This document shows, piece after piece, positions 14,797-17,153 of a stretch of 48,859 nucleotides of DNA. Position 1 is the first letter of the stretch. Every line of letters begins with the position of its first letter. The DNA is from Bdellovibrio sp. (GTDB lineage Bacteria > Bdellovibrionota > Bacteriovoracia > Bacteriovoracales > Bacteriovoracaceae), in contig DYOQ01000018.1 of the NCBI GenBank assembly GCA_020720455.1, forward strand, positions 1-48,859. Direction: 5' to 3'. The notes under the pieces are model-generated. The model was not told where the DNA came from. It saw only the letters and a program-made list of their open reading frames with translations, and made no database searches. The position numbers and the translations under genes are program-made.

Positions 14797-16116
14797 TTAC
14801 TTATCACAATAAATTGCAGCGTCACTTCTTGAATCAATAATAAATCCATTTTCTGTTGTGGTGTCGGTATGTTTAACATCCATAAACGATATAATGTCTC
14901 CAATATCTCTTTGATGATAAATTGGAATATTGTTTTTTTGCATGTTACGTATCTGTTCGCCTGTTGCCTTTGACGTTTCATATAGAATTCTTTTTGGTGA
15001 CATTAAAAAATAGTGACGAGGACTGTTTGTAAGTTCAACCATCATTTTTTTTGATTGAGCGTTATCACCACCTATATTTATTAAGTCATACAAAAGTTGT
15101 CCCGGATCTCTTGTCGAAGTTGATAGCAAGATTGTATGGACGAGTGGAGATGGTTCACTTATACAGATAGCTTTGCTAGTAGCGGGATAACTCCCTTTAA
15201 CTAGGAATGTGTCGTATGTTGGGAGAATTTTATCAGTTAATTTTTGAAAGGTTGTAGCTATGAACATATCTCCGTTTTTTCTTTTAATGCCATAATTATT
15301 GCTCGCAGATGGTTTTTTAGCTATTGGGTAGATTGAATTTTTATAGAGATTGAAATCATAGTTGCATTTAACTTTTCTGGAACTATCATCACCAATAGAA
15401 TAGTCAAATAGGTATGCTAACGTCTCATCAGAAAAATTTTCAATCTCATTTTTTGCTGCGCTTACTACTTGTTCAAATTTGATTCTACTAATTGCTTCAC
15501 CAACTCTTAATGGTTGATTTCCTCTGTAAAACGCACGGGAAAATTGGGACGTATCAGTTAACTGTTTTGTATTTGTAGTAATGAAGCTAGCTAGATCTTT
15601 CGATACTGTTGGAAAAAAGTTGGGTACGTTATCAACTCCAGTTGCTAGTTGTGCAAGAGTAAAAGGTGAATTGTATTTTTTTAATAGGTGATTTAGCCCA
15701 GAAAGAAGAGGGAGTGAATTTTCTTTGTATAATTTCTCATTAACAAAATCAAAATATGATATCTGATTATTTTTTTTAATTACTATGAGCAATCTAGATG
15801 TCGGAGATGAGATGTCTGGCCGAAAATTCATTTGAACGAGAGCAAATATAACGGCTTCTTCTACGATAGATAGTTGCCAGCGAGTGTGTTTAATAGAAGA
15901 TAGAACTTTTTTGTACTCTAAAATGACAGAAGAGTTTTTTGCAAAAATTTCAGGGCCATTACTATTTGAACAAGTAAGATTAGCTCTACTCTCTTGGTTG
16001 ATTGGTTGTTTGTTTTTAGGTAAGTAGGCCGAGCAGGAGTAAAAAAGAGTGAGAAAAATAAAAATGAGTTCAGGTTTTTTTAATAGGATTAGAGGTGTAA
16101 GAAAAAGTTTTTTCAA
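14797..16116 (-). CDS. unknown probable lipoprotein
   Basis: A 439-residue protein with a long hydrophobic N-terminus ending at a cysteine in LFYSCS (about residue 28), probably a lipoprotein although the lipobox is not canonical. The rest is mixed alpha/beta with no motif I recognise. Repeated mentions of Asp, Lys and Ser in the C-terminal half and a few cysteines (near 49, 258, 325 and at the third residue from the end) may matter for disulphides. It is monocistronic, converges with the M23 peptidase gene, and has a good promoter at 16173-16202. Confidence 0.65.
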   Translation of the reverse strand: MKKLFLTPLILLKKPELIFIFLTLFYSCSAYLPKNKQPINQESRANLTCSNSNGPEIFAKNSSVILEYKKVLSSIKHTRWQLSIVEEAVIFALVQMNFRPDISSPTSRLLIVIKKNNQISYFDFVNEKLYKENSLPLLSGLNHLLKKYNSPFTLAQLATGVDNVPNFFPTVSKDLASFITTNTKQLTDTSQFSRAFYRGNQPLRVGEAISRIKFEQVVSAAKNEIENFSDETLAYLFDYSIGDDSSRKVKCNYDFNLYKNSIYPIAKKPSASNNYGIKRKNGDMFIATTFQKLTDKILPTYDTFLVKGSYPATSKAICISEPSPLVHTILLSTSTRDPGQLLYDLINIGGDNAQSKKMMVELTNSPRHYFLMSPKRILYETSKATGEQIRNMQKNNIPIYHQRDIGDIISFMDVKHTDTTTENGFIIDSRSDAAIYCDK

Positions 16117-16202: not shown

Positions 16203-16254
16203 AATAAAGAATAGGTACGTTATTGCCAGGAAAACTTTTCCATTAAAAAAAATT

Positions 16255-16283
16255 ATGATTCTAAATTGATTATAGGATATAAT
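16255..16283 (+). promoter_or_regulatory. candidate promoter of the small RNA
   Basis: A perfect TATAAT at 16278-16283 with a weak -35 (ATGATT at 16255-16260, 17-base spacer). The expected start, 7 bases after the hexamer, is G16290, exactly the first base of the first hairpin of the candidate small RNA. Confidence 0.4.
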
Positions 16284-16289
16284 GAAAAT

Positions 16290-16364
16290 GTGGAACAGGA
16301 AGTTTCACCAAGTAGGCAGGATGCCAAAAAAGAGGGGCCTTTGCAGGGGGCCCCTCTTCTTTTT
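16290..16364 (+). ncRNA. candidate CsrA-binding small RNA (CsrB/RsmZ-like), about 75 nt
   Basis: Three hairpins in a row. Hairpin 1 pairs GUGGAAC (16290-16296) with GUUUCAC (16302-16308), one G-U, around loop AGGAA. Hairpin 2 pairs GGC (16315-16317) with GCC (16323-16325) around loop AGGAU. Hairpin 3 is a strong terminator at 16330-16358 with a T tract. Loop 1 with its closing pair reads CAGGAAG and loop 2 reads CAGGAUG. Both match the repeated CsrB element CAGGA(U/C/A)G, which is known to sit in hairpin loops and bind CsrA. A perfect TATAAT lies at the right distance upstream. The region has no ORF of note. Alternative: the terminator serves only the minus-strand fnr-type gene and the other two hairpins are chance. 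Confidence 0.5.
16330..16364. terminator. strong bidirectional terminator
   Basis: A 10-base-pair GC-rich stem (AAGAGGGGCC / GGCCCCTCTT) with a 9-base loop. It is followed on the plus strand by CTTTTT and preceded by AAAAA, so a minus-strand transcript also ends in a T tract. It lies 12-18 bases beyond the stop of the fnr-type gene and would also end the candidate small RNA. Confidence 0.85.
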
Positions 16365-16376
16365 AGCTCTACTTTC

Positions 16377-17087
16377 TCAGCAAAGATTAGCAAATTTTAT
16401 TAGTTTTTGTTCATCGACTAGATAAAGAGTTTTTCCTTTCTGTACGATCAAACCTTCATCTTTAAACTCAGCAATAAATCTTATCAGTGTTTCATTTGCA
16501 ACACCAATCATTGATGCCATCTCTTCTCTGGTTAGTTTTATGTTAAGTTTCCATCCATATGTGGTGTCTCGTTCGCCATACGCTTCTTTTAGAGTGATAA
16601 ATAGCTCTGCAAGTCTTTCACGAACATTTTTTTGAAATAAGGAAGCCACTTTACACTCTGCTAAACCTAAATCCCTTCCAAGCTTTTCGATAATCTTCAT
16701 GGCGACAGACATATTTTTTTCCATGGTTTTTTGCAAAATATCTTTATCGATAAAACAAAGAGTGGAATCTTCTAATGCTGTTGCCGTTGCGCCGTAGCAG
16801 TTACTTGTAAATAAGCATCGGTGGCCTAAAAGGTCTCCGCTAGCAGTAATTCGTATGATCGACTCTTTTCCATCATTGCCTATTTTGGAGATTTTAATTT
16901 TTCCTGCTCCAACACAATAGATTCCATATGAAGGGTTACCTTGAAAAAAAAGAGTTTGTCCTTTTTTGTAGTAGTTTGTTACCTTCCCTTCGTCAAGACA
17001 GTGCATGGCATCGTCTGAAAGGTTCGTAAAAATACAGGTTTTAAAACCTGGACAGTTTTTACATTTAATCATTGCGCCAAGAGTCAT
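16377..17087 (-). CDS. FNR-type [4Fe-4S] Crp-family regulator
   Basis: A Crp/Fnr-family transcription factor: cyclic-nucleotide-type beta-roll, long dimer helix, then a helix-turn-helix (LTREEMASMIGVANETLIRF). At its N-terminus CKNCPGFKTC has the C-x2-C-x5-C spacing of E. coli FNR Cys20, Cys23 and Cys29. A further cysteine in DSTLCFID lies 93 residues after the third, exactly the FNR Cys29-Cys122 distance. An oxygen- or NO-sensitive [4Fe-4S] cluster is therefore likely. In the recognition helix the E and R of ExxSR are kept but S is I. The start is uncertain: ATG 17087 (GGAG about 12 bases upstream), GTG 17105 or ATG 17072. It diverges from hpf. Confidence 0.85.
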   Translation of the reverse strand: MTLGAMIKCKNCPGFKTCIFTNLSDDAMHCLDEGKVTNYYKKGQTLFFQGNPSYGIYCVGAGKIKISKIGNDGKESIIRITASGDLLGHRCLFTSNCYGATATALEDSTLCFIDKDILQKTMEKNMSVAMKIIEKLGRDLGLAECKVASLFQKNVRERLAELFITLKEAYGERDTTYGWKLNIKLTREEMASMIGVANETLIRFIAEFKDEGLIVQKGKTLYLVDEQKLIKFANLC

Positions 17088-17153
17088 TAGCAGCACCAGC
17101 TCCACTTATATGTTTTGGATCAGAATTATTCATCTTTTCTATCAAAAAGTAAA

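Follow-up and report, generated by a model that had tools for sequence, protein, structure and literature searches.

A candidate minimal CsrA-sequestering small RNA conserved in the FliW-bearing family Bacteriovoracaceae

The window analysed here is the complete 48,859-nucleotide stretch of contig DYOQ01000018.1 (Bdellovibrio sp., assembly GCA_020720455.1). The locus under study lies between a divergent lipoprotein-like gene and a convergent gene for an FNR/CRP-type regulator, and its features are as follows.

14797..16116, minus strand: gene for a lipoprotein-like protein, divergent and upstream; conserved syntenic neighbour, no Pfam family matched
16229..16241, plus strand: conserved palindrome GGAAAACTTTTCC, 36 nt upstream of the -10 box and probably the site of an activator (comparison of homologues)
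16278..16283, plus strand: -10 box TATAAT (sequence)
16290..16364, plus strand: predicted sRNA, about 75 nt long, comprising two CsrA-type hairpins followed by an intrinsic terminator (covariance model R1)
16290..16308, plus strand: hairpin 1, GUGGAAC-AGGAA-GUUUCAC, 7 bp, AC..GU closing the loop AGGAA (sequence, covariation)
16315..16325, plus strand: hairpin 2, GGC-AGGAU-GCC (sequence, covariation)
16330..16364, plus strand: intrinsic terminator with conserved loop UUUGCAGGG (terminator scan, covariation)
16377..17105, minus strand: FNR/CRP-type regulator gene, convergent; cNMP_binding and HTH_Crp_2 domains

The first-pass annotation, made from the window sequence, had described a TATAAT box, a CAGGAAG hairpin, a CAGGAUG hairpin and a terminator with a T tract. 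All of these are present as described, as judged by the sequence, the predicted fold and the terminator scan. The predicted 75-nt RNA folds into three hairpins (z = -3.57 against dinucleotide shuffles), and the window copy scores 87.9 bits with covariance model R1. The stem-loop of the strong terminator occupies 16330-16358 and the T tract 16360-16364; in its loop the window copy also has GCAGG, a degenerate third element. The A-rich 5′ flank makes it plausible that the same structure also terminates the convergent FNR-type gene.

The distribution of the RNA was determined in several collections of genomes. A DNA search of 59 genomes gave similar sequence in about 20 genera. The 18 aligned relatives share the three hairpins, with stems that differ in sequence and loops that are identical in kind, and the covariance model was built from these 18 sequences. 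The covariance search in relatives, which had been proposed as a check, was successful: the sRNA was found in 119 of 129 Bacteriovoracaceae genomes (44 of 48 genera; three of the 119 matches are weak, with E > 1e-5), nearly always as a single strong copy per genome, and in 70 of the 73 family genomes of good quality. No true match outside the family was obtained among 291 genomes drawn from the phylum. The only two matches above threshold there (G300 and G305; 33.7 bits) are terminators without paired GGA hairpins. Strong matches in named records belong to Bacteriovoracaceae, Bacteriovorax (one labelled Bacteriovorax stolpii), Bdellovibrionales and one 'Deltaproteobacteria' MAG. Among the loci from a DNA-pattern scan of public genomes that were scored with the model, 11 Bacteriovoracales-type records and the window reached at least 69 bits, and no scored locus from any other group exceeded 18 bits; the scan also gave many unrelated pattern matches, in Bradyrhizobium, actinomycetes and others. 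Neither the window nor any of 20 homologous loci contained a match to an Rfam family at its gathering score. The permissive Rfam matches in the window are all far below gathering scores, and none is a Csr/Rsm family. Origin of the sRNA in the Bacteriovoracaceae lineage is the best explanation.

Pairing of the stems was evaluated in 56-57 aligned copies. In these, 97.3% of the cells are paired and 12 of 16 pairs show double changes. Doubly changed cells number 140, whereas shuffles average 37.7, and a covariation score of 0.493 contrasts with 0.207 after shuffling; none of 500 shuffles reached any of the observed values, and slid controls collapse. Covariation is seen at five of the seven pairs of hairpin 1 and five of the six pairs of the terminator stem, while in hairpin 2 all cells (100%) are paired and two pairs are changed on both sides. 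As the 56-copy alignment was fitted to the covariance model, the earlier free MAFFT alignment of 18 sequences matters as a check, and it agrees (93.0% paired, 0 of 500 shuffles). The arrangement had been judged unlikely to arise by chance from the single sequence. Recurrence of the three-hairpin unit in 119/129 family genomes, with compensatory changes in the stems and constant loops, places it far beyond chance.

The GGA sequence is retained in loop 1 of 56 of the 57 copies and in loop 2 of 54, as read from the listing of aligned copies. It is lost from loop 1 in one copy and from loop 2 in three. An automatic tally gives 51 and 53 GGA loops, because hairpins mismatched close to the loop are passed over. 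Loss of both GGA loops in relatives that keep the terminator had been named as evidence against a Csr-type RNA; the pattern found is that the loops are kept and the stems vary. The loops with GGA consist of A(N)GGA, the element recognised by CsrA/RsmE, plus one base, N being U, A or C, and occur as AGGA[U/A/C] pentaloops or as AUGGAU, AAGGAU or ACGGAU(A) hexaloops. Most copies have ACAGGAUGU or ACAGGAAGU in hairpin 1. The Pseudomonas protein RsmE accepts A(N)GGAX variation in RsmZ, binding the hexaloop most tightly and loops without N more weakly (PMC4005645). Judged from the aligned letters, loop variation in the sRNA is exactly this accepted range. The predicted AC..GU closing of hairpin 1 likewise agrees with the E. 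coli CsrA SELEX consensus, RUACARGGAUGU (PMC7652899). In 52 copies, 17-24 nt separate the two GGA sequences, with a median of 19. Sites at a distance of 10-63 nt can be bridged by a CsrA dimer, with an optimum of >18 (PMC7652899), and the spacing would be suited to one dimer bridging both loops. GCAGG(G/A) is found within the terminator loop in 47 of 57 copies; it is GCAGGG in 31 of 57, so the GGA is often missing there. The conservation of this loop, UUUGCAGG(G/A) at 16340-16348 in the window and in the homologues, far exceeds the needs of termination.

Upstream of the RNA, the -10 box is exactly TATAAT in 41 of the 57 copies and TATACT in 11. The TATAAT proposed for the window stands, and two points are added to the promoter: no -35 box is recognisable (a promoter/terminator scan gives no sigma-70 pair at the sRNA locus), and a conserved palindrome is present at 16229-16241. 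In 49/57 copies the distance from the end of this palindrome, GGAAANNNTTNCC, to the -10 box is 35-38 nt; L184 and L020 also carry it and fall outside that range because the script chose another -10 hexamer. Of 56 upstream regions, 51 contain the motif, compared with 0.015 on average after shuffling, and its arrangement with the -10 box is unique to the sRNA locus within the window genome. The GacA/UvrY-type site is TGTAAG-N6-CTTACA, and in each of the 56 upstream regions even the best match departs from it at 3-6 of 12 positions. Since the palindrome lies near -55 and the -10 box has no -35 partner, we infer that the promoter is activator-dependent.

The lipoprotein-like protein encoded upstream has 439 amino acids, and a homologue of its gene is upstream and divergent in 49 of 57 sRNA loci. 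The FNR-type gene adjoins the sRNA in only two of the 57 (the window and one relative); the link between respiration control and the Csr system that its position had suggested is therefore unsupported.

The window genome has one csrA gene, the presence of which the first-pass annotation had left to be checked. It is adjacent to fliW, beside a flagellin-domain, flgL-like gene. The encoded protein matches best the CsrA in 5dmb, a crystal structure of CsrA with FliW, and the alignment takes in the C-terminal extension. In all six genomes examined, CsrA has L4 and R44, which serve RNA binding, as well as the FliW-binding residue N55; a CsrA with its RNA-binding residues is hence encoded in the same genome as the sRNA, and fliW beside csrA, together with a CsrA that has the C-terminal extension and N55, is the arrangement of a FliW-CsrA partner switch. 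Both csrA and fliW were detected in 116 of 125 sampled family genomes each, and each in 72 of 73 of good quality. FliW is found in 97 of 114 phylum genomes and is therefore very likely older than the sRNA. In the csrA-fliW intergenic region (L001, L178, L179, L225) a conserved element, ATTCCT-N-CTTGC, lies just past the csrA stop codon and may serve fliW as a promoter or regulatory site.

Flagellin leaders were analysed for comparable sites in a set of 26, most of them from Bacteriovoracaceae and a small number from the phylum's other families. A(N)GGA hairpins are present in 18 of them against a shuffled mean of 1.2, and 15 remain after dropping three that merely include the Shine-Dalgarno GGAGG. 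This suggests that CsrA controls flagellin across the family. The hairpins lie 40-90 nt before the start codon (e.g. L228, L230, L243, L250), and in many cases the Shine-Dalgarno sequence supplies another GGA; the leaders resemble that of B. subtilis hag.

The family appears to have, throughout, both FliW and a Csr-type sRNA. BarA-UvrY, taken as a sign of sRNA antagonists, and FliW have been reported as mutually exclusive, with a correlation of -0.97, and the same study does not settle if inhibitory sRNAs operate in species with FliW (Zere et al. 2015, PMC4682653). Csr sRNAs are described as gammaproteobacterial (Pourciau et al. 2020, PMC7652899), and a 2026 Geobacter paper assigns the CsrA that bears N55 and a C-terminal extension to bacteria lacking CsrB/C sRNAs (PMC13407953). 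In the open-access papers searched no description of a Csr sRNA in this lineage was found, and none joins Bacteriovorax with CsrA or Halobacteriovorax with a small RNA; subscription papers could differ.

With RsmX, RsmY and RsmZ of Pseudomonas the sRNA shares a short non-coding RNA, A(N)GGAX loops, C-G closing, an intrinsic terminator and an activator palindrome upstream (putative here). It differs in having the palindrome described above, not one of the GacA type, in a host with FliW, and shows no sequence homology to them by Rfam. With CsrB and CsrC of E. coli it shares repeated CAGGA(U/A)G in hairpin loops; CsrB, however, depends on BarA-UvrY and is found in lineages without FliW, whereas the host of the sRNA has FliW. 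As the first-pass annotation had stated, the known Csr/Rsm RNAs are richer in sites, with 6-22 GGAs against two here, or three if the GCAGG terminator loop is counted. CsrB has 22 GGA sequences (PMC7652899) and RsmZ of P. fluorescens 8 in 127 nt (PMC4005645), compared with two main hairpins bearing GGA within the roughly 75 nt of the present RNA, whose two conserved A(N)GGA hairpin loops are at the low end of known numbers. The flagellin (hag/flaA) leaders of FliW-bearing bacteria also have GGA sites for CsrA, as predicted in the sRNA, and the Campylobacter flaA mRNA itself takes part in controlling CsrA (PMC4894983); these are mRNA leaders, whereas the RNA described here forms a gene by itself, with a separate promoter and terminator. 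Among RNA motifs, TwoAYGGAY (Rfam RF01731) also consists of two hairpins with GGA in the loops, as in the sRNA. The window contains no match to it at any of the thresholds reported, and none came from a whole-genome search in which the positive controls were equally silent. The proposal of a minimal CsrB/RsmZ-like RNA therefore has strong comparative support in the presence of csrA, the covariance matches and the retained loops, but not as descent from the Rfam Csr/Rsm RNAs. Given that no homology to any of these was found, 'CsrB-like' denotes a probable way of working and not a common origin.

Several other explanations of the locus were considered. The ATG at 16289 opens a frame that runs through the terminator, MWNRKFHQVGRMPKKRGLCRGPLFF, and the unit could in principle encode a small protein. 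In the homologues, however, neither start, frame nor length is kept (lengths are 79-91 nt, in one case 105, with single-base steps) and the stem changes compensate. Coding potential was rejected on the lack of a conserved frame, and what is conserved, a -10 box and a terminator with no reading frame, is a free-standing non-coding gene. Nor is the unit at all likely to be a mere bidirectional terminator of the FNR-type gene in which GGA hairpins arose by chance. Runs of A and T on both sides and the position just past the FNR stop codon would fit such a role, but in 55 of 57 loci the unit occurs without a nearby FNR gene, and it has its own promoter element and covarying hairpins; synteny and covariation refute the terminator as the sole function.

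An ordinary base-pairing sRNA, with exposed G-rich loops (AGGA, GCAGG) pairing to C/U-rich mRNA and CsrA uninvolved, is improbable. The loops are indeed the conserved parts and could act as base-pairing seeds, and GCAGG in the terminator loop is kept though often without GGA. Against this, AGGA and ANGGA alternate among genera by a one-base insertion, which breaks the register of pairing and is accepted by CsrA/RsmE; the closing AC..GU is kept as well, and the same element is repeated on two separate hairpins at bridging distance. Involvement of CsrA in another capacity is unlikely, though less so. In FliW-bearing Bacillus subtilis, CsrA promotes the pairing of SR1 with ahrC, and by this precedent the RNA could be a CsrA-assisted regulator, or could merely be stabilised by CsrA, without acting as a sponge. 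The presence of two sites only, and a conservation of the terminator-loop GCAGG that exceeds known CsrA needs, are in line with this possibility, but no conserved single-stranded seed exists besides the hairpins and terminator, and the linkers vary in length and sequence. A further counterpoint to a sponge is that pentaloops without N, by analogy with RsmE, may be bound less tightly than hexaloops (PMC4005645).

In view of what is observed (the sequence, its structure and conservation, the promoter element, and the joint presence of csrA and fliW), the stand-alone RNA of about 75 nt is read as a minimal CsrA sponge that would bind one dimer per RNA, be driven by an activator and act on top of FliW-CsrA; we give this reading a probability of about 0.82. 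The presence of two CsrA docking hairpins on a conserved RNA means that it probably soaks up CsrA, as CsrB does in E. coli. Transcription would depend on a putative activator, postulated from the promoter layout. One CsrA dimer would bind both A(N)GGA loops of one sRNA molecule, and the sRNA would titrate CsrA off mRNA leaders, for example flagellin leaders, thereby relieving repression. With only two or three sites, strong titration would need abundant RNA. CsrA would in this way be under two antagonists, FliW responding to flagellin status and the sRNA to the signal driving the activator, the latter having been added onto an older, phylum-wide FliW-CsrA partner switch. It is likely that one family runs CsrA with both an ancestral allosteric FliW and a lineage-specific, activator-switched two-hairpin sponge. 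The best reading of the comparative data is a new minimal family of putative CsrA-sequestering sRNAs outside the Gammaproteobacteria, layered on ancestral FliW-CsrA.

The Bacteriovoracaceae, mostly predatory, were thought to use FliW alone as CsrA antagonist. If the sponge reading is true, sRNA control of CsrA would no longer be a gammaproteobacterial alternative to FliW, and Csr sponges would have arisen independently. N55-type CsrA, FliW and a conserved Csr-type RNA occur together in one family, and the coexistence of both controls is therefore directly testable, for instance in Bacteriovorax stolpii. The sRNA would also give structural studies a natural Csr sponge of very small size, and may bear on motility switching in the predatory life cycle.
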